This document shows, in pieces, positions 2,778 to 13,451 of a DNA stretch of 13,451 bases. The stretch comes from Irineochytrium annulatum (Eukaryota > Chytridiomycota > Chytridiomycetes > Chytridiales > Chytridiaceae): contig JADGJL010000814.1 in assembly GCA_027600665.1 (NCBI GenBank), positions 1 through 13,451 of the forward strand. The letters run 5' to 3'. The position numbers and the translations under genes are program-made. How positions within the stretch are numbered: the first letter of the stretch is position 1; each line of letters begins with the position of its first letter. Under the pieces are notes generated by a model that was not told where the DNA came from, ran no database searches, and saw only the letters and a list, made by a program, of their open reading frames with translations.

Positions 2778-3872
2778 TCATACTCTTCCACCGTTTGCTA
2801 GAGTCCGCACCGTCATGTCGCCGACCGGGTGCACTCGCCGTCCGCCGTCCCCCGCAGACGCTGACGTCGGCAGCCGCAATCCGACGACCGATGCCGCGGC
2901 CTCCGCCACCTTCCTGTTCACCAGCACCATCGTGACGGGCGTGAGCAGTGCGTCCGAGCCCGACAGCGTCGCGGCCAGAGTGTCCACCCAGACGGGGCAA
3001 GGCGCGCCCGTCACGAGCCTGTAAGCGAACGTGCCGAACTGGAGGAGGTAGGTGGAAAGGAACACGAGGACGACGCCGATGCACCGGTAGAACACCTTAA
3101 GCTCGCGATCGCCGCCCGCACCGTGGGCCGGGGGGCCAGGGAGGGCGCGCCCCTTCTCATCAGATATGGCGATGATGGTGCCTGTGGCCCGCCGGCGCGC
3201 CAGTATGACCGTGATGTAGATGTACGTGTAGGAGAAAAGGACGATCGCGGACGCCAGCGCGCAGTACGAGGCCGTCACGAAGGTGCCGAGGAGCCTTGTC
3301 ACACCGGCCCCATCAGGCCTGAACGGCAGGAAACAACCCACCCCCGACTCGCTCGGCTCAAAGCCTCCGGTCACGTGAGCCAGGACGACCGCCGTCGCCG
3401 CTAGGACCTCGACGACGGCCAGGATGGCGAGGAGCGTCGGCCGCGTGTCCTTGACGGCGCCAGATACGGTCATCAGGCGCTCGATCGCGATCAGCATGTG
3501 GGCCGTCACGGCGTTGCCCGAGAGCTCGACTGCGATGGTGCCGGAGGCCAGACACAGGGCGTCGCTGGCCGGCGACCCGTCAAAGCCGCCGTGAATCATG
3601 GCGATGTAGGCAATGACCCAGCCGAAGAGGACGCACATGAGGAGGTGGATGACGACGATCAGGACGAAGAGGTAGTCAATCGTGCGGACGAGAAGGTCGC
3701 GGCGGTGCTTGATGTACCCTACCAGCAGGATCAGCTACCGAGGTGTTAAGCCAATCATATTAACACGTCAGGAAACCAGATTCCTCACGTTCAGCGCGAA
3801 GGCGGCCACGTAGACGGCGAGCTCGACCCGTGCGAAGACCAGCGACGACGGCGGGAGGCCAGGGTCACCCAT
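2778..3872 (-). CDS. Rhodopsin-family (class A) 7TM receptor, paralogue R1
   Basis: Exon 1 is 3872-3789 (28 codons), exon 2 is 3734-2778, and the 54-nt intron (3788-3735) begins GTGAGG and ends GGTAG; 346 residues. It is likely a plasma-membrane receptor signalling through a heterotrimeric G protein. Approximate segments: TM1 15-36 with Asn28 as the last exon-1 residue, basic loop KHRRD 37-41, TM2 47-72, Cys89, TM3 to Glu113-Arg114 (ER motif), TM4 128-148, ECL2 Cys162 in GCFLPF, TM5 176-206 ending YTYIYITVI, ICL3 about 207-241, TM6 242-268, TM7 276-300 with D289-x4-P294, and a basic helix-8-like NRKVAEAA. Seven residues before the TM7 Pro, where opsins have the retinal Lys, it has Gly287. The 28-residue N-terminus carries no signal peptide. 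R2 lies just upstream on the same strand. The ligand cannot be predicted. Confidence 0.88.
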
Positions 3873-3920
3873 GCTGGAGAACCCTTGGAAAATCCCTATT
3901 GTGTCGATCTGCGGGTCGCC
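3873..3920 (-). promoter_or_regulatory. 5' leader of R1, conserved with the R3 leader
   Basis: Read on the minus strand, the 48 bases before the R1 ATG start GGCGACCC, continue AGATCGACAC, then AGG, a TTTCC block and a CTCCA block next to the ATG. The 47 bases before the R3 ATG have the same blocks in the same order and almost the same spacing. This is either a recent-duplication footprint or a conserved leader or promoter-proximal element. Confidence 0.5.
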
Positions 3921-4389
3921 CTCCCGAGTCGCGACAACAACTACAGAAGGTTTGACACTCCGCAGAGTAGGGCAACCTTGCTATGGCATTCAAATCAAGT
4001 TGGGTATGGTAAGAGTTGCGCATGCACTGTGCAGAAAGTAAAATAAATTACAGAAATAGCAGAAAATGTCACAAGGCGCGTAGATGCGATTTCTCTCTAT
4101 TCGCTATGCTCACACATAACTTCCCCAGCCCTCAGGGCCATGCAAAAGTCGCCTGACTTCAAACCACACATGCTGAGCTTGCAGTTCTGCGGCCCATACG
4201 TCGGGGACCCGTCGGCAGGTGGGACGTACAGGTGTTCTGTGGGGACACGACAGCTAGAGGAGCGGTCGCCTGGCCGGCTGAATGTCATGCTGCTGGTGCT
4301 ACTGCTGACTCGGCGAGCCCAGCGCTTGTTGTTGATGCTCGTGAAAAGCGGCGTGGCAGCCAGTTCTTCGCCTTTGTCTGATCTGCTTC
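3921..4389. other. Intergenic region between R1 and R2
   Basis: About 470 nt, holding the R1 promoter and the R2 3' UTR. An AT-rich patch near 4030-4075 contains AATAAA on the plus strand, which is the wrong strand for either neighbour. The minus-strand frame open through 4612-4097 runs through R2 in the wrong frame and is not a gene. Nothing else is supported. Confidence 0.45.
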
Positions 4390-5486
4390 TCATCCAAAAT
4401 TCGCGTCGGCACCCATTTGTAGCGTCACGTCCCCCACCAAAGGCTGCACGCGCCGCCGCCCGTTCCCTCCGAGGAACGCCGGCAGCCGAATCCCAACCAC
4501 CCCTGCGGCGGCCTCCGCTACCTTCGTGCTCACCAGCACCATCATGACTGGCGTCGCCAGGGCGTCCGCGCTGGTCAGAGTCGAGGCGAGGGCTTCTATC
4601 CAGTCCGGGCACTTCTTGGCCGAGATGAGCTTATATGCCAATGTGCAGAACTCGAGCAGGTATGTGCAGGCGAACACGAGGACCACGCCGACGCACCGGT
4701 AGAACACCTTGTGCTCGCGATCGCCCGCACCCTGCTCCGTACGTCCTGGACCTGAGCGCGAGACGAAGCCCTTCTCGCCGGAAGCGTCGACCTTGCTGAT
4801 TATGGCCCGTTGGCTCCGTATAACCGTGATGTAGATATAGGTGTAGGAAACCAGGACGATGGTGGCCGCCAGACCGCAGTAGGACGCCGCCATGATGGTG
4901 CCGATGACCCGAGTCAAGTCCGTTCTACCGGGCGCAAATGGTAGGAAGCAGAAGAGCCCCGAGTCGTCCGGCTCGAACCCTCCCGTCAGGCGGGCCTGGA
5001 CCGCCGCGATTGCCATCAAGATCTCGACGACGACTAGGATGACAATCAGCGTCGGCCTCGTGTCCCTAACGCCAAACACGACGGTCATCAGCCGCTCGAC
5101 CGCGATCAGCATGTGGGCCGTCACGGCGTTCCCGGCGACCTCGAACGTGACCATGCCGGTAACCTGGCACAGGGCGACGCTTGCCGGGGAGTTGTCGTAG
5201 CCGCCCCGGATCAGCGTGCTGTCGACCTGCATCCAGGCATAGAGGATGCTGAGGGAGAGGTGGATGCCGACGACGAGGAGGAAGAGGTAGTCAATTGTGC
5301 TGACGAGAAGCTCGCGCCGACGCTTGATGTACGCTATCAGCAGGAGCAGCTACCGGGGTATCGAGCTGATCAGACCAGGCGGCAGGAAACCGAATTGCTC
5401 ACGTTCAGCGGGAAGGCGGCCATGTAGACGGCGAGGTCGACCCGTGCGAAGGCTGCCGACGACGGAGGGACGCCAGGACCGTTCAT
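4390..5486 (-). CDS. Rhodopsin-family (class A) 7TM receptor, paralogue R2
   Basis: Exon 1 is 5486-5403 (28 codons), exon 2 is 5349-4390, with a 53-nt intron (5402-5350); 347 residues. Intron position and phase match R1, and the introns also look alike (a shared GGTTTCCTG and a CGGTAG end), so R1 and R2 are likely a recent head-to-tail duplication. Landmarks fall at R1 positions: TM1 Asn28, KRRRE 37-41, Cys89, Glu113-Arg114, ECL2 Cys162 in LFCFLPF, YTYIYITVI at the TM5 end, EHKVFYRC entering TM6, and TM7 with SADALATP. The retinal Lys position is Ser. R2 differs in a KRRRE first loop, an ICL3 containing SGEKGFVSRSG, and a C-tail ending in Asn-Phe-Gly. It should be a plasma-membrane receptor coupled to G proteins; ligand unknown. 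It is divergently oriented to R3. Confidence 0.88.
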
Positions 5487-6020
5487 CCGGGGGCAAGGAC
5501 GACGGTCATTGTTAAAGATTTACTCCATGTTCCACATTGGGAGTACCCAAGGCCTTCATGCTCCTGGGGCAAGCTGATCTTCTCTTGCAGCTGGTTTCAT
5601 TCCGCTTTTTCCTCAACCAGAGAAAAAGAACCATAGGAGGACGCTGGACCACTTAGGAGCGGACGAAAACCATCTGACTCAACAGTAGCTCCATGCCTAC
5701 AATGCAGCCAAACCTGCTTTTCCCACGAGCTTGGCGGGGCTTCGACCGCCCGCCTGATCATGAACGTTTCCTGCGATGCGACGGCCCGCCGCCCACATGT
5801 AGGAAATCACCACAAAGCACATTGAACTTCCTTGCAGCATATGGAAGGGGCTTGTTTTCGGACACACCAAGTCATCACCCACCGATATTCACACTCTTCG
5901 TTGAACAGTCATGGAGACTGATGGGATCGACGGCGATGACTGACCTGCGACCACCTGGAATTCATGCAAGGACGGCGACCCCTGAGATCGACACGACAGG
6001 ATTTCCAGCGGTCCTCCAAC
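5487..6020. other. Divergent intergenic region between R2 and R3
   Basis: These 534 nt separate the start codons of R2 (minus) and R3 (plus) and could act as a shared bidirectional promoter. The plus-strand ORF at 5693-6028 has no recognisable motif, overlaps the conserved R3 leader and reads into the R3 ATG in another frame, so I do not call it. No obvious TATA box or repeat stands out. Confidence 0.45.
5974..6020 (+). promoter_or_regulatory. 5' leader of R3, conserved with the R1 leader
   Basis: The 47 bases before the R3 ATG carry GGCGACCC, AGATCGACAC, AGGATTTCC and CTCCA blocks in the same order as the 48 bases before the R1 ATG, with one short indel. R2, R4 and R5 do not show it by eye. 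Confidence 0.5.
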
Positions 6021-7119
6021 ATGAATGACCCCGTCCTCACGCCGTCGTCGCTGGCCATCGCGCGGTTCGAGCTCGCCGTCTACGCGGTCGGATTCGTTTT
6101 AAACGTGAGTGGGCTCCTTGTGATCACGATTAATGTGCTTAACCTATCCTGACTGTTTGATTCAGCTCCTCCTTCTGGTCGCGTACATCAAGCACCGCCG
6201 CGACATCCTCGTCCGCACGATAGATTATCTGTTCGTCCTCATCATTGTAGTTCACCTGGGCCTCTCCGTTCTCTATACCTGGATGCAGGCGCACGTTACC
6301 CTAATCCACGGTGGCTACACCAGTTCCCCAGACAGCGACGTCTTGTGCCAGGCCAGCGGCACCATCGGGCTCGTGGTCTCCGGGAACGCCGTGACGGCCC
6401 ACATGCTGATCGCGATCGAGCGCCTGATGACCGTCGTTCTTGGCGTCAAGGACACGAGACCAACCCTCCTGACAATCCTGGCTTTTGTCGAGGCGCTGAC
6501 GGTCACAGCCGCCGTCCAGACGCACCTGGCGGGCGGGTTCGTGCCGACCGAGTCTGGACTGTACTGCTTCTTCCCTTTTGAAACCGAGGGAGCCGACCCG
6601 GCGCGGCTCGCTGGCACAGTCTTGACGGCAGCCTATTGCGCCATGGCGGCCGTCATCGTCCTCTTCTCCTACACGTACATCTACATCAGGGTCATACGGA
6701 CGAGTCGGCGGGCCACGGGCAACGACGTCCCCGCCCCTGATGAAAAGGGACCCACCGTCGCGCCCGACCGGACAACCCACGGCGCGGGCGATCGCGAGCG
6801 CAAGGTGTTCTATCGATGCGTCGGCGTCGTCCTCGTGTTCCTGTCCACCTACCTCCTCGAGTTTAGTACGTTCGCGTATAAGGTTATGACGGGCGCGGCG
6901 TGCCCGGACTGGTGGGACGCGCTGGCTTCACTTATGACCGGGGTGGACGCCATCGCTACGCCGGCCCTGATGCTGCTCATGATTAGGAAGGTGGCCGAAG
7001 CCGCGGTTGGGGTTGTGGGGATGCGGCTGTCGATGTTCGCGGTGGGGAATGCAGGGAGGCGTGTGCAGCCGATGGGAGATGTGTCGGTGCCAGTGAGCAC
7101 TGAAAAGGCCACGGGGTGA
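6021..7119 (+). CDS. Rhodopsin-family (class A) 7TM receptor, paralogue R3
   Basis: Exon 1 is 6021-6104 (28 codons), exon 2 is 6166-7119, and the 61-nt intron (6105-6165) begins GTGAGT, has CTTAAC and CTGAC branch-like sites and ends TTCAG; 345 residues. The frame is open upstream of 6166, so a within-intron ATG at 6133 would be a false start. Landmarks: TM1 Asn28, KHRRD 37-41, Cys89, AIERLMTV with Glu113-Arg114, ECL2 Cys in LYCFFPF, YTYIYIRVIR closing TM5, ERKVFYRC opening TM6, and TM7 with GVDAIATP. Gly occupies the retinal Lys position, so an opsin is unlikely. ICL3 is short and hydrophilic (about 40 residues) and contains DEKGP. The TM3 region and the leader are close to R1 at DNA level, suggesting recent duplication or gene conversion despite opposite orientation. 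Confidence 0.88.
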
Positions 7120-7919
7120 GGGCCGAGTGTACTCATGCTGGTGAACTCCCGACCAACACGGTGTTCGACCGACCAACGTTGCCGGCCTCCGCATGGCCGT
7201 GCCTGTCGGTTTCATGCCCTTTAATCCGTCGGTCGGCGTGGATCGGGGCGGAGACCGGATTGACGCTCGAACCGCCGCGGGTCGGGCCGCCGAAGTCGTT
7301 TGCTCCGGAGAAAGTTCCTGGGGATAGGGATTCGGTTGAGCGAAGCAGGGTTGAAAGCGCGTGCGGCAAATCCTGAGGCATTACGGCGTGGAGGTGGAGG
7401 AGCCGTCCGAGACAGTGATACCCGTTACTGCTGCGATCCCTCTAGGTCGGGCTGCCGAGTTGATTCGTAAAAAGTCGAGGCCCTGGAAAGAGGACCGCCC
7501 GAGGGCTTTTTCGGCGGACAATATCGTGATGAGGAGCTTGTCGCTGATACAGGGGAGGGACCCGCGGCTCGACGGTGGAAGAGGCAAAGGACGTCAGAAC
7601 GACTTTACAGTGAATGATTTGGTGATGGGAGGCTATCTGGAGACCCCGACGTATCTTGCCGATGATATATCAAGGGATAATGACAAGCGGGAAGGTGGAG
7701 CTGGAGGCGTTGACCGCGGCCGAAGGTGGTCGTGGGCAGAGGAAAAAGTTAGGGATTTTGACTGATATGAACGAGCATGAAGATCGACCGCGTGCGCCAA
7801 CTATCAAAGTGAAAGTTGTTGCGATGCTGGATGTGGCACACGGGAGAGACAGAGATATGAGCGGGAGCAAGACCAGCATGAGGTTAAGACGGTGGAGATG
7901 CACGGCGACCCGTAATTAG
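7120..7919 (+). pseudogene. Possible decayed coding remnant between R3 and R4
   Basis: Three consecutive plus-strand open stretches look protein-like but change frame: about 7220-7376 (with PPRVGPPKSFAPEKVPG), 7361-7765 (134 codons, with GRAAELIRKKSRPW and FTVNDLVMGGYLETP) and about 7680-7919 (with GKVELEALTAAEGG). Composition is charged and hydrophilic, unlike the receptors. Frame hand-offs near 7370 and 7690 would need frameshifts or undetected introns. I found no good GT-AG pair joining them and recognise no domain. It could be a disrupted gene, an exon series of an unknown small gene, or chance open frames in GC-rich DNA. It starts right after the R3 stop. Confidence 0.25.
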
Positions 7920-8262
7920 TGAGGCTGTTCCAAGCAGACGCGGCTCGAACGGTACAAGGGTGGGACGATGGCGGCGGCAGCTGTTGCCACCAAGTGCTGT
8001 CGCGTTGCAAAACGTCTCCGTATGAGTTTCTATTCTACGCCCTTCTATGTTTGTTCTTTTTCTATTGCAAATGCATTGCAAGAAAAGTCTGCATTTGTTG
8101 TTTATCTACGAAGGAACACAATCTGCTTCCAAATATTGTGCTCACGTTGGTAACGATGTGATCGCGATCCGCCCAGCAGTCTTTATGCGGCGTGCGCAAC
8201 ACTGTGTGTGTCGATCTTTGTAAGGATCGCCGCAGCGTCCACCGTCAACCTTCGCCCCTCGG
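7920..8262. other. Upstream region of R4
   Basis: These 343 nt include a relatively AT-rich patch (about 8020-8150) before the R4 ATG and presumably hold its promoter. Short overlapping ORFs on both strands show no motif. No RNA gene or repeat is seen. Confidence 0.4.
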
Positions 8263-9500
8263 ATGGGGGATGTCAGCCCGGCGTCCACCGCCATCGCGTG
8301 GCTCGTGCTCGCAATCTACACTATCGCGTTCCCGCTGAACGTGCGTTACTTCCTTGTCGATCGCATTGTCGCGTCCTCTAACTGTGCCACTCGTAATAAC
8401 AGGCGATCCTCCTGGCCGCGTACGTAAAGCACCGCCGGACGCTCCTGCAGCGCACGATAGACCACCTCTTCCTTTTCATCGTCCTCATCGAGCTGATTTG
8501 GTGCATCCTCTTCGCCTGGATGGTAGCCCACATTGTCATCATCCGCCACGGATTTGACTCCTCACCAGAAGGTGACCTCCTGTGCCAGATCGCGGGCGTC
8601 GTCGTGCTCGAGACAGCGGGCAACGCCATCACGACACACATGCTGATCGCCATCGAGCGGTGGCTGACGGTGGTCGCGGGCGTAAGGGACTCGCGAGTGG
8701 GCATAGCGGCGCTGCTCCTGGTGCTAGAGGCTGGGTTCGCGGGCATGGCATACGCGCAGTGGCGGGTGATGTCTCGCAGGTTCGAGCCGGCGGAGTCGGG
8801 CCTCTACAGCTTCTTTCCCTTGTTGGTGGGTCCAAGTGGGGACTATGCACCGCTGGCGGTGTCGATCGTTGCGGTCGGGTACTGCTCGCTGTCGACAGCG
8901 GTCATCCTTGGCGCGTACGGGTACATTTATGTCACCGCTATCCGGGTCAGGAGGGCTGTCGGGAGTACAGGCCACGGTTCGTCTGACGAGAAACGGAAGC
9001 GGTCCCGCCAGGAGCGCACCACCCACACGAGCCACACGACAGCATCGGACGAATCCCACCCGTCCAGTACGGATGGCAGGATGTCGGTGGACAATGCCGT
9101 CCACCCTACTCGCGTGGCCGGCACAACATCGGATGAGAACGGGGTCAAAGCGGCGACCCTGCGTGCGGCGACGTCCCGAGCGAGCGAGGACCGCAAGCTG
9201 TTCTTCCGCTGCGTCGCGGTCCTAGGCGTCTTCCTCTCGACGTACTCCCTCGCGTTCTACGGGTTTCTCTACAAGCTCATCGCGAATCGGTACGTGTCGG
9301 TGACGTTCGACACGGTCGCCATGGTGCTCACGTCGTGCGACATGGTGGTCACGCCCATTATGATTGTGGTCACAAACAGGAAAGTGGCCGCGGCGGCGGC
9401 TGACGTTGTCGGGATGAAGATGCCATCTGGAATGCGGGGCCATGGGAAGGGGCGGGTGCAGCCTGCGGACGATGTGGGCGAGCCGGTGGACGCGGTTTGA
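8263..9500 (+). CDS. Rhodopsin-family 7TM receptor, divergent paralogue R4 with a long ICL3
   Basis: Exon 1 is 8263-8340 (26 codons), exon 2 is 8403-9500, and the 62-nt intron (8341-8402) begins GTGCGT and ends AACAG; 391 residues. The intron follows the TM1 Asn (residue 26) as in the other four. Cys87 and Glu111-Arg112 (AIERW) are kept. In ECL2 the usual Cys is Ser162 (LYSFFPL), so the canonical TM3-ECL2 disulfide cannot form as usual. TM5 ends YGYIYVTAI. ICL3 spans about 207-291, roughly 85 residues against about 35-40 in the others. It is rich in Ser, Thr, Lys and Arg (for example DEKRKRSRQERTTH), a plausible site for G-protein selectivity or phosphorylation. TM7 has SCDMVVTP, with Ser at the retinal Lys position. 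It is probably a functional but specialised receptor. Confidence 0.87.
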
Positions 9501-9805
9501 AGACTGTGGAAAGGCCGGGAAGGAGGATACCAATGTGCATAAAATATGTAGATATTCCACTTAAGTGTTTCTCAACACATCATAAGCAAGGCAAGCGAGA
9601 AATGTAGCCATGATCCGACCATGAATTGAAGGCGCTTCGATGGTTGAAGCCCGCTGGCCTATTTCCAACACTTCGTGGCATGCAGATGGACAGTCGTGGA
9701 TAGGATTGCAAACTTAGCCAATTTTACCGAGAAGTCGGTACAAAAAGCTCACGACGCGTTGCCTTCACAGTCCGCCATCCCCACCTCGCGCCTACCTCGA
9801 CCCCC
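9501..9805. other. Intergenic region between R4 and the zinc-finger gene
   Basis: 305 nt on the shared plus orientation, holding the R4 3' UTR and the zinc-finger promoter. Apart from a weak poly(A)-like CATAAA at 9538 nothing distinct is visible. A plus ORF beginning at 9675 overlaps the zinc-finger gene in another frame and is a shadow. Confidence 0.4.
9538..9543 (+). terminator. Possible poly(A) signal variant for R4
   Basis: CATAAA followed by AATATG lies 38 nt after the R4 stop codon in an AT-richer patch. This is a non-canonical hexamer, so it is only suggestive. Confidence 0.25.
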
Positions 9806-10552
9806 ATGCCGCCCAGCGTCGACAACGGTTCCGCGGGCCTTGCTCTCCAGGACTGCCGAAGTCTGCGATTATCGCTCTCAACCAACGAATTGAACACGCG
9901 TATGGACTCGCTCTTCCATCGTTACTGCGACTACGTGTACCGGCTCGGGCTGCTCCCCTCCGGAATTGCAGGGCCGCTCGCGGCCGAAGCGGCCGCGGAT
10001 ATTCTTGCCCTGCTGCTCCCCTGCCTGGGCTCCCCTCACCAACCCCTCGACCCGTTTATTGCGGCCTTTGAGAAGCACCGCAACACCATGCGCGCTATAC
10101 GGCATTCGCTGCGATACTTCAATGTCCAAGGGTCAGGCGCGCCAAATTCCCGGTTCTGCACGCCATCCTTGGCCTCGACAGCCGTCCTGTCCACCCCAAG
10201 CCCCGATTACCGCGCCGCCCCCCAAACACCGAAAGCCGCGGACAGGCTTTCCAAGACCGCAACGACGGCCCGCCGTCTCAAACGCGAGCGAGGAGCTGAG
10301 CCTACACACGCGTGCCCGCACGCCGGATGCGGGCGGCGGTTCCACCGGCGCGCATACCTCAGCTCGCACCTGATAACCCACTCGGAGGTCGCGAGGACGC
10401 ACGTCTGCGCCGTCCCGGGGTGTGGGGCCGCGTTCAAGAGGGGCCATGACTTGAACAGGCATGGGAGGACCGTGCATGGCGTCAAGAAGGGGGTGTGTGG
10501 GGAAAGAGCCAGCAGTGAATCGTCGGAGCAGCACAACTACAATTTAATATAG
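9806..10552 (+). CDS. C2H2 zinc-finger protein with two C-terminal fingers, putative transcription factor
   Basis: A single exon of 248 residues. Two adjacent C2H2 fingers lie at the C-terminus: Cys170, Cys175, His188, His192 (C-x4-C-x12-H-x3-H) and Cys201, Cys206, His219, His224 (C-x4-C-x12-H-x4-H). The linker between them is SEVARTHV rather than the classic TGEKP. The x4 spacing and paired fingers are common in fungal DNA-binding regulators. A basic patch (ARRLKRERG, about 155-163) just before the fingers could serve as a nuclear localisation signal. Residues 36-107 form a predicted alpha-helical domain (FHRYCDYVYRLGLLP onward) that I do not recognise; 111-150 is Ser/Pro/Thr-rich. The ATG at 9806 is the first in frame; Met33 is a possible alternative start. 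It sits between R4 and R5, so a role in regulating the receptors is conceivable but unproven. Confidence 0.82.
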   Translation: MPPSVDNGSAGLALQDCRSLRLSLSTNELNTRMDSLFHRYCDYVYRLGLLPSGIAGPLAAEAAADILALLLPCLGSPHQPLDPFIAAFEKHRNTMRAIRHSLRYFNVQGSGAPNSRFCTPSLASTAVLSTPSPDYRAAPQTPKAADRLSKTATTARRLKRERGAEPTHACPHAGCGRRFHRRAYLSSHLITHSEVARTHVCAVPGCGAAFKRGHDLNRHGRTVHGVKKGVCGERASSESSEQHNYNLI

Positions 10553-10858
10553 TGTATACTAAGATCCCGTGATTCAGTTCTCCGAGCATAAGCACGTACG
10601 GTCCTTTTTTAGACTGTGTATGTTGGATTTGTACATGCAGCAGTTCCAGCCATGCCGTCCTAGGTGAAGAATAGCTCTCTCTAGGTGCCAGCGCATGTTG
10701 GCTTTGACACGGTCGGATATTAAGTATTCAAAGTTACTATCCAGTATTTACTCTGCCAAGAAGGAAGTGAGTTTGAAAGATGATTCCCAACTCAGGGCGC
10801 GTATTGCCCTTTAATACAATGTATTTAGTATTTGTACCGTCTGCAATAGGTCAAGCGA
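10553..10858. other. Convergent intergenic region between the zinc-finger gene and R5
   Basis: The 306 nt lie between two 3' ends (zinc-finger gene on plus, R5 on minus) and are comparatively AT-rich, as expected for terminator DNA. No gene is supported. Confidence 0.45.
10810..10815 (-). terminator. Possible poly(A) signal for R5
   Basis: ATTAAA on the minus strand, 43 nt after the R5 stop codon, in an AT-rich context. This is the commonest variant of the canonical hexamer, but a single hexamer is weak evidence. Confidence 0.3.
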
Positions 10859-11955
10859 TTAAGCTTCCTCGCCCTCCCTCTCCTTCTCGGTCTTTGTCCC
10901 ACTCCTTCCCGGCTCGGCGGACGTCGTCGCTGTTGGATGGACGCGGCGCCGGCCCTCCCGAGACATCCACGGTGGAAGCCGCACGCCTACGACAACCGCC
11001 GCGGCCTCTGCCACCTTCTTATTCATGAGCAACATCATGACCGGCGAGGCGATTGCATCAAGCCCGGAAAGCGTCGCGGCGAGCGCGTCGATCCAGCCGG
11101 GGACGTGCGCGTTCGCCATGAGCTCGTATACGATGCTGCTGAACTCGAGAAGGTATGTACACGCGAACACGGCGACGACGCCTACGCAACGGTAGAACAC
11201 TCGTTGCTCGCGCTCGCCGCCGCGAGGGGTCATATCGTGCGTCGTATGTATTGCAGGTTTGTCGGCGGTCCGCCGGCTGGACCGGACCATCACGACGTAG
11301 ATGTAGGCGTACGAAGACAGGATAATCACGGTCGCCCCCCCGCAGTAGGCGCCAAGCATCTTCGTCCCGATTAGCGAATTGGCCATTGGACTGTCGGCCT
11401 GGGTCACGGAGGGGAAGAAGCAGTACAGCCCGGACTCAGCCGGCTCGAACCGGCGCACTGAATGGAGTTGGATGGTAATTGCCGCAGCAAACAGGACTTC
11501 GACGACGGCCAGGATCGCGAGGAGGGTCGGAGGAGTGTCCTTGACGCCAAGCACCACGGTCATCCAGCGCTCGATCGCGACGAGCACGTGCACCGTGACG
11601 GCGTTCCCCGCGAGCTCGAGCGTGAGGATGCCGTCCACTTGACACAGGGTGTCGCCGGCCGGCGAGTCGTCGTAGCCGCCGTGTATGAGCGTGATGTAGG
11701 CCTGTACCCAGGAGTAAAGAACGCATATGACGAGGTGGACGAGGATGATGAGGAAGAAGAGGTGGTCGATGGTGCGGACAAGGAGATCGCGGCGATGCTT
11801 CACGTACGCAACCAGCAGGAGGAGCTTTTATAAATGTATGATCAGAGTCACCAAGTATAGGGTGTTCTCACGTTTAAAACAAAACCGACGGCGTATATGG
11901 CAAGCATGATCTGTGGGAAGGCCTGCAACGGCGCGGGGACGCCTGCGTTCTGCAT
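10859..11955 (-). CDS. Rhodopsin-family (class A) 7TM receptor, paralogue R5
   Basis: Exon 1 is 11955-11872 (28 codons), exon 2 is 11824-10859, and the 47-nt intron (11871-11825) begins GTGAGA and ends TAAAAG; 349 residues. The intron again follows the TM1 Asn28 in phase 0. Landmarks: KHRRD 37-41, TM2 DHLFFLIILVHLVICVL, Cys89, AIERWMTVV with Glu113-Arg114, ECL2 Cys163 in LYCFFPS, YAYIYVVMVR closing TM5, EQRVFYRC opening TM6, and TM7 with GLDAIASP then MNKKVAEAA. Gly occupies the retinal Lys position. Its ICL3 is the shortest of the five. The C-tail is charged and ends in a KEREGEEA-type stretch. An out-of-frame ATG at 11960 overlaps the start. It is separated from the other four receptors by the zinc-finger gene and converges on it. 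Confidence 0.88.
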
Positions 11956-12650
11956 GCCATCAGACAGTGCTGGGATCGGCACAGATTTCCAGACTTGCAG
12001 TAATCCAAGATTCGGCGATCTGGTTCCTCCATCACCTCTGACGGGCCGCCATCATCGTTCTCAGCGCCCACCTCTTCGCAGAAGTTCCGTCTGCCAGCGA
12101 TCCGGGCCAAACCGCACGAACCGGCCGGATCCGGTCAGGTGGGATCGATCAGTTCAACACGCGCCTTCCCCCAGATCGTGCATCCACTACAGAAGGCAAC
12201 GACTTGGAGCGGCTGGAGCCCCCCACTGACGCTAGGCGTGGCTTGACAAGATGTGAGCGAAGGGATGTGGCAGCATTCTTTCGTCCAAGTAAAGGATTGG
12301 ATCGTCAGGACATCATCAGGGAGATCACCTGATGAGTTCTTGACCCGGGCGGCAATGAAAATTTAATAGCTTATTATATACTTGCTACTTTCGTCCTTCC
12401 CTGCCGCACACCGGCGGAATCTCGCGCCTGCAAACCTCAACCGCTCGCCCTCACGCTCCGCACACAGGACAAACCGCAGTTCCTCTCCAGGCTCGTGATG
12501 CGGACGTCGTAGGGCTGCGACCTCGTAGAGTTGCCAGTGCCTTGTTGCGCTACAATAACCAGGCTGTGCATCAATAACAAGGTTTTTACTTCTGATGAAA
12601 AAGACCCACAATTGCCATTCATACCCCATTGCATTCCACCGCAAGCTCTG
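11956..12650. other. Intergenic region between R5 and the copine gene
   Basis: These 695 nt separate divergently transcribed R5 (minus) and copine (plus). The R5 leader side is GC-rich with small GATC/CCGG palindromes near 12119-12155. An AT-rich patch at about 12358-12385 could be a TATA-like element for the copine. Minus-strand open frames (12644-12363 and 12736-12437) give protein-like stretches in two frames, but neither is recognised nor clearly a gene. Confidence 0.4.
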
Positions 12651-13451
12651 ATGACCAGCGAACCTCCCCCCACGTACCAGCCGGCCGCCGGCGCCTTGAT
12701 CGGCCAGTCCGATCCGGGGACCACCGCTCGCTCCATATCTCCTGTTCGCAGCTCCTCAATCGGGACACTTTCTCCAAATCAGATCCCCAGCTCCTCGTCT
12801 ACATCCAACAACGGACCCCGCATCGCTCCTCGACGGTCAGCTCGCTCCCGCAATTTGATCTTGGCACGGGCATGGTGCCACGGATCACTGGCGGCTGGCG
12901 GCTCATCCACCGATCTCGGACGATCCAGGACGACCTCAACCCAGTCTTCCCGGAGCCCATCGAGATCGACTACAAGTTTGAGCGCGTCCAGAATCTCTGC
13001 TTCGTCGTCGTGGACGTGGACGACGACGCGGCGGGCGCGACGCCAGAGCAGCAAGATTACCTGGGCCACCACGTCGTGAGCCTCGCGGGGGTCGTCAGCT
13101 GCGGGAGCGAGGGTCACAAGGCGAACCTGAGCACGGCGGCCTGTCCCGATGGGTTCCTTAAGTTCAGGAGGAGCACGACAGTGAGAGGGGATGGCAAGGC
13201 TGGGACAATCCTGATTAGGGCGGCGACGAAGGCAAGCGAGCACGCAAACATTGTGCTGCGGCTGGAAGATGAGGGTCTGCCGCGATCGTGGACGGGTGCG
13301 CTGGAAGCGTGCGTGAGCGTTTCGACGGTCGACAGCGTGGGGAACGGCCGGCCGCTAATCAAGAGCGAGGTGTGCACGGCGCCGAAGCGGGGAAGGGGGA
13401 ACGCGAGGTGGAAGGTCCGTGTGCCCGTGGCGCTTGTGGGTGGGACGGGAG
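12651..13451 (+). CDS. Copine (C2-domain, Ca2+-dependent phospholipid-binding protein), partial at the right edge
   Basis: From about 12731 the plus frame reads a copine C2A domain. It has HISCSQLLNRDTFSKSDPQL with Asp in NRD and KSDP, then RTIQDDLNPVF, then YKFERVQNLCFVVVDVDDD, then DYLGHHVVSLAGVVS. These are the strand order and Ca2+-binding loops typical of copines. A second, C2B-like part (ANIVLRLEDEG onward) follows and lacks the usual SKSDP-type loop. The von Willebrand A-like copine domain would lie beyond the window. The likely start, ATG at 12651, opens a plausible N-terminus (MTSEPPPTYQP) but lies in a different frame from the C2A domain. The C2A frame is open back to a TGA near 12593 without an ATG. 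A one-base assembly error, a real frameshift, or a spliced upstream exon could explain this. Copines bind membranes in response to calcium. Confidence 0.78.

Follow-up and report, generated by a model that had tools for sequence, protein, structure and literature searches.

Class A (rhodopsin-like) G-protein-coupled receptors (GPCRs) serve animals in smell and in hormone detection. They have also been described in chytrids and in Allomyces (Krishnan et al. 2012, PMC3251606). The available text of that paper presents its 12 fungal sequences as having an Asp in transmembrane helix 2 (TM2), an ERY motif and an NP pair in TM7. The general kind of receptor is thus already known in early-diverging fungi. 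The stretch of DNA analysed here (the window) is an entire contig of 13,451 bases (C889) from the 26.9 Mb assembly of Irineochytrium annulatum (Chytridiales), which comprises 1,082 contigs. It contains five intact seven-transmembrane (7TM) genes, R1 to R5, spanning positions 2778-11955; the stop codon of R1 lies at 2778 and the start codon of R5 at 11955. Sequence analysis confirms the cluster as a real, intact set of class A-like receptor genes in a chytrid. Their products are probably G-protein-coupled chemoreceptors of the flagellated zoospore, possibly sited in the flagellar membrane. What is new is a variant receptor core, an apparent restriction to this species and an RVxP motif in the C-terminal tail; a shared intron and further family members are added too. 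No report of the cluster or of RVxP tails was found in the open-access literature (the subscription literature is mostly uncovered). The locus tags of the five genes run consecutively in the public annotation, from HK101_011013 to 011017:

2778-3872, minus strand: R1 gene, HK101_011013
4390-5486, minus strand: R2 gene, HK101_011014
6021-7119, plus strand: R3 gene, HK101_011015
8263-9500, plus strand: R4 gene, HK101_011016
10859-11955, minus strand: R5 gene, HK101_011017

The initial annotation had proposed a cluster of five 7TM receptor genes, and all five are present at these positions. They share one layout: a first exon of 26-28 codons, a single intron of 47-62 nucleotides (nt), and a second exon of 318-366 codons including the stop, which is open throughout without internal stops. 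The intron falls at the identical codon boundary in the middle of TM1 in 5/5 genes. A splice at this boundary also fits the seven members checked on other contigs (C335, C235a, C235b, C619, C496, C1082 and C339), and for C235a and C619 the script lists other splice pairs besides the shared one.

3789..3872, minus strand: R1 exon 1 (N-terminus and first half of TM1)
3735..3788, minus strand: R1 intron, 54 nt, GTGAGG...GTAG, phase 0 after LN
2778..3734, minus strand: R1 exon 2 (second half of TM1 to C-tail)
5403..5486, minus strand: R2 exon 1
5350..5402, minus strand: R2 intron, 53 nt, position as in R1
4390..5349, minus strand: R2 exon 2
6021..6104, plus strand: R3 exon 1
6105..6165, plus strand: R3 intron, 61 nt, position as in R1
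6166..7119, plus strand: R3 exon 2
8263..8340, plus strand: R4 exon 1
8341..8402, plus strand: R4 intron, 62 nt, position as in R1
8403..9500, plus strand: R4 exon 2
11872..11955, minus strand: R5 exon 1
11825..11871, minus strand: R5 intron, 47 nt, position as in R1
10859..11824, minus strand: R5 exon 2

The proteins are 345-391 amino acids (aa) long and 37-64% identical in pairs, with an expectation value (E) <= 4e-76 in every pair. Simple pairwise Nei-Gojobori estimates of the ratio of nonsynonymous to synonymous divergence (dN/dS) lie between 0.34 and 0.55 in all ten pairs (dS 0.57-1.22), and therefore all five genes look maintained. The 345 aa model of R3 is identical to public record P0001. 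Public models of the other four genes depart from the shared splice pattern (at 3735-3872, 5350-5486, 8263-8402 and 11825-11955): P0002 (R1) has an N-terminal extension of 25 residues, P0004 (R2, 306 aa) lacks the second half of TM1 and TM2, P0010 (R4) has five extra residues, and P0003 (R5) is missing six residues of TM1. DNA similarity between R3 and R1 extends about 50 bases 5' of the start codons (5970-6020 versus 3873-3924); some upstream sequence was therefore copied along with the genes.

Residues are numbered by the Ballesteros-Weinstein scheme, set from sequence anchors and not from structure superposition. Two sets of 14 family members were used. The set for the C3.25-R3.50 spacing holds a partial protein without TM6-7 (P0008) and two rows without exon 1; in the main motif set C339 replaces P0008 and all rows are complete. 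The features that had been listed as common to the five receptors hold in each of them: N1.50, C3.25 exactly 25 residues before R3.50, ER(L/W), the Y..IY end of TM5, F(Y/F)RC entering TM6, and the Pro of TM7. Most extend to the family. The 25-residue spacing is found in 14/14 rows, as are C3.25, (E/D)R at 3.49-3.50 (followed by Trp or Leu, never Tyr), P7.50 and Y5.58, the register of the last being taken from sequence alone. N1.50 is present in 13/14 (Thr in C339), F6.44 in 13/14, and the Cys of extracellular loop 2 (ECL2), the putative disulfide partner of C3.25, in 13/14. Position 6.30, that of the ionic lock, is acidic in all five window members. R4 is the exception in ECL2, where it has Ser; it also has Glu at 2.50 and the longest intracellular loop 3 of the five.

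Profile and fold comparisons agree with the rhodopsin-family assignment of the initial annotation. Pfam 7tm_1 (PF00001) matches 13/14 family members at E <= 1 and four of the five in the window at E 4.4e-8 to 6.3e-6, although only two of these exceed the gathering cut-off. When the family profile is searched against the PDB, 12 of 13 matches are class A. Predicted AlphaFold models of R3 and R4 show a class A 7TM fold, as had been anticipated, with a helix 8, and only class A proteins are among the 50 matches listed for each; Foldseek proper was applied to the R3 model, and the R4 model was compared with a second-look aligner. Several results weigh against the assignment. R5 has no 7tm_1 match in the Pfam search, and R3 alone, without the family profile, meets no class A receptor in the PDB, its single match (E 0.94) being an unrelated protein. 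The models are of middling confidence (mean predicted local distance difference test, pLDDT, 62.0 and 65.9), and the Foldseek matches to R3 fall at query TM-scores near 0.45-0.62, their root-mean-square deviations being large. The missing class A matches of R5 and R3, together with faint Pfam hits among other membrane families (at best Srv, E 0.0023; DUF1182, E 0.0028; Ctr, E 0.0099), would suit an enzyme or transporter of another 7TM family with a chance likeness to class A. Such an identity is very improbable against the exact C3.25-R3.50 spacing and the class A matches of the models and the family profile, and a non-GPCR 7TM family is ruled out by profile and fold, though R3 alone found no class A structure. 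The evidence from sequence and models supports R1-R5 as class A-like receptors, not canonical ones.

The qualification arises from the receptor core, where the initial annotation overlooked the absence of the central class A motifs D2.50, CWxP and NPxxY. Position 2.50 is H, H, H, E and H in R1-R5, and His, Glu or Gln across the family, with Asp in C339 only (1/14; register by sequence). P5.50 is replaced by Ala, Ser or Thr in 14/14 rows. In place of CWxP there is T/S/C at 6.47 and Tyr at 6.48 in 14/14, with Pro 6.50 kept in C335 only; in place of NPxxY, 7.49 is T/S/A and 7.53 is M/I/V. With these motifs absent, canonical activation cannot be assumed, which counts against the chemoreceptor role. 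The family resembles the receptors of Krishnan et al. in superfamily, in the TM3 (D/E)R, in the Cys residues of ECL1 and ECL2, and in belonging to early-diverging flagellated fungi. It differs from those 12, compared by their description, in the residue at 2.50, which is His/Glu/Gln (Asp in a single member), in its (E/D)R(W/L) motif and in the (T/S/A)P of TM7, and is therefore a distinct variant (PMC3251606, text available). Members with a strong enough 7tm_1 match would belong to fungal GPCR class 15 (7tm_1) of Liu et al. 2025 (PMC12842992), in the main text of which the name Irineochytrium does not occur. Surveys based on domains would miss some of the family, because several members miss the Pfam cut-off and R5 is unmatched.

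A second known system, the opsin-like GPCR of Spizellomyces punctatus, is likewise a class A-type 7TM protein of a chytrid. It has been proposed as a type II opsin, and light reception by zoospores would be the corresponding role for R1-R5, which are of the same superfamily; rhodopsin structures also head the Foldseek list of the R3 model. The Spizellomyces candidate, as presented in the accessible text, was chosen for its retinal lysine and keeps ERY and NPVLF; the I. annulatum family has neither that lysine nor NPVLF (PMC5410147). Position 7.43 is G/S/A/V/L/T in all 14 members and Lys in none; therefore none is an opsin, the non-opsin assignment stands, and light reception of this kind is scarcely credible.

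Three residues, D2.40, H3.43 and D7.45, are invariant in 14/14 members, and a Glu in TM4 is present in 13/14. The buried ionisable residues (2.50, His 3.43, Asp 7.45 and the TM4 Glu) could form a protonation switch in pH or ion sensors that need no organic ligand. Proton-sensing class A receptors have buried acidic clusters. The invariance would equally fit a structural role, the TM4 Glu has no firm register, and the outer halves of the helices, which change fast (see below), would be left unexplained; pH or ion sensing is accordingly improbable.

In I. annulatum the family has at least 15 members (one partial), plus relics, and 10 of 11 genomic places matching 7tm_1 belong to it. The eleventh, C451 (L028 1851-2825), was rejected as a member. 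It encodes a distinct 7TM-like protein in several open pieces, with a Cys-containing N-terminal part, a 7tm_1 match at E 7.5e-5 and a sub-threshold Frizzled match at E 0.036. A tree was built from 14 near-complete members: the five of the cluster, seven encoded on further contigs of the assembly, and P0005 and P0006, which share a 6,689-base contig that is not among the places found in the searched assembly. The fifteenth member, the partial P0008, was kept out. R1, R2, R3 and R5 form one clade (support 91/92, which is not decisive), while R4 branches outside a group (87/88) that also contains P0005, P0006 and C335. Forcing all five into one clade is disfavoured by the approximately unbiased (AU) test (p-AU 0.0251), and a single recent tandem expansion yielding an exclusive clade is ruled out in that form. 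The local expansion that had been proposed is thus borne out for R1, R2, R3 and R5. An expansion of all five as one clade lacks support, because members on different contigs separate R4 from the other four, at moderate branch support; the expected relationship within one family does hold. Elsewhere in the genome, about 19 kb separates the two C235 genes. Relics broken in every frame seen are C996 and a stretch next to C496; C389 is matched piecewise only, with in-frame stops, and introns are not excluded there. The relics point to gene death in the family, and growth within I. annulatum by local duplication, divergence and gene death is the best explanation of its present form.

The family is apparently restricted to this species. 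Three protein searches, which scored 7998, 7996 and 329 candidates, returned 8, 7 and 10 hits respectively, all of them from I. annulatum. The public family proteins found in total number 13 (P0001-P0013), of which the searches recovered 8, 7 and 10. As these searches used a word prefilter with an estimated floor of about 45% identity, the negative covers close relatives only. None of 25 pattern matches in viral contigs was confirmed. The Bac_rhodopsin and Dicty_CAR families gave no match in the assembly, in searches that had no positive control.

When the helices are split at mid-membrane, with hand-set boundaries based on the R3 model, identity among R1-R5 is 0.63 in the inner halves and 0.45 in the outer halves; over 14 members the values are 0.515 and 0.372. 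None of 20,000 permutations reaches this difference, in the five or in the 14. Chemoreceptors would be expected to combine a constant coupling face with a ligand face that changes. It should be noted, as a point on the other side, that conserved inner halves are also expected in non-chemosensory class A receptors. Animal chemoreceptor families, such as nematode Srx and Srv and vertebrate odorant receptors, consist of clustered paralogues with a constant inner and a variable outer half. The I. annulatum family is arranged likewise, and weak Pfam matches to Srv in R5 (E 0.007) and Srx in R4 (E 0.029) occur; the similarity is far below the family cut-offs and is a likeness of style, not membership. 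Fast divergence in the outer halves, together with the gain and loss of genes, would also suit recognition receptors, which detect pheromones or sister cells and diversify with mating types. Such a mating role is unlikely: at least 15 co-resident paralogues would exceed the usual need of a mating system, and nothing resembling a pheromone gene was recognised in the window, although no search was aimed at one.

The machinery downstream of a GPCR exists in the genome, since pieces of G-alpha are found above cut-off on four contigs, regulator of G-protein signalling (RGS) stretches in eight places, and arrestin-type stretches in three of five. There are also 32 stretches of class C receptors (7tm_3) on 17 contigs; counted as stretches and not as genes, the class C signal therefore exceeds the class A-like family in this chytrid. 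For the chemoreceptor role we infer receptor activity, G-protein coupling, zoospore expression, flagellar location and the ligand alike. A soluble cue would bind the fast-changing outer half of the helix bundle. From there the signal would cross the altered core, with His/Glu/Gln/Asp at 2.50, His 3.43, Tyr 6.48 and Asp 7.45, and reach the conserved inner half, with its E/DR, Tyr 5.58 and, in R1-R5, acidic 6.30. A heterotrimeric G protein would then be activated and steer swimming or settlement. The cues sensed may come from host, substrate or gametes, as had been suggested.

The C-terminal tails offer a possible route to the flagellum, each of the five containing one RVxP motif:

2826..2837, minus strand: R1 C-tail RVHP
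4441..4452, minus strand: R2 C-tail RVQP
7060..7071, plus strand: R3 C-tail RVQP
9453..9464, plus strand: R4 C-tail RVQP
10934..10945, minus strand: R5 C-tail RVHP

The tails are otherwise diverged: in 32 aligned columns, the only ones invariant in R1-R5 correspond to R327, V328 and P330 in R3, the residue between V328 and P330 being His or Gln. The motif occurs once per protein, always in the tail. When the rows were shuffled internally 200,000 times, no shuffle produced an RVxP common to the five or matched the number of invariant columns. Because shared ancestry is left out of account, this test shows conservation relative to the surroundings, not independent origin. RV[QH]P fits the (K/R/Q)VxPx ciliary-targeting motif of rhodopsin and polycystins; CNGB1b also has RVxP (PMC3930517, in part). 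RVxP may direct the receptors into the flagellar membrane. As expected of a flagellated fungus, the genome contains a gene for a radial-spoke protein, and stretches of dynein heavy chain occur on 11 contigs.

Other observations argue against such targeting. RVxP is exact in only 6/14 members, and short motifs of this kind are common. P0006 has RVQP, P0005 HVHP and C496 RIHP; C235a and C339 have VxP near the C-terminal end, and the tails of C335, C619, C1082 and C235b contain no VxP-type motif. IFT57 was not found in the assembly. Ciliary targeting of nephrocystin-3 is independent of its VxPx (PMC3930517), and the BBSome does not bind VxPx-type motifs (PMC5700813), as far as the available text of each source goes. 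Apart from the question of targeting, C619, C235a, C235b and C1082, which belong to the other main clade and lack RVxP, have by eye an alternative tail block, E(N/D/G)A(P/S)(L/M)(V/I). On balance, location in the flagellar membrane is only tentatively suggested by these sequences. A more far-reaching proposal, rather doubtful as a whole, is an olfactory-like family evolved from class A stock in an early-diverging fungus, with RVxP delivery to the zoospore flagellum. Its rebuilt activation core would have moved the acidic switch from 2.50 to 7.45 and gained buried histidines at 2.50 and 3.43, possibly gated by pH. If true, it would be a fungal counterpart of animal ciliary chemoreception.

The window contains further reading frames. 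Two adjacent open frames on the minus strand (3-686 and 1724-2527) have by eye the look of tandem paralogues, with a common block ending HPDR(I/V)L(F/Y)AVAG; neither has a Pfam match at E <= 0.1. Between R4 and R5 lies an open C2H2 zinc-finger frame (9806-10552, plus strand, E 1.1e-5), which seems to be unannotated publicly because the five receptor locus tags are consecutive. The start of a C2-domain protein (12629-13451, plus strand, E 2.4e-7) is truncated at the contig edge.

The mechanism of chemotaxis in chytrid zoospores is described as poorly understood in the available text of a recent source (PMC12115818). Concrete candidates for it are provided by this clustered, fast-evolving family, in which the inner half is constant and the tail contains a ciliary-type motif. 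If these receptors signal, they would be class A-like receptors that operate without D2.50, CWxP and NPxxY, which would bear on which parts of the activation path are essential.

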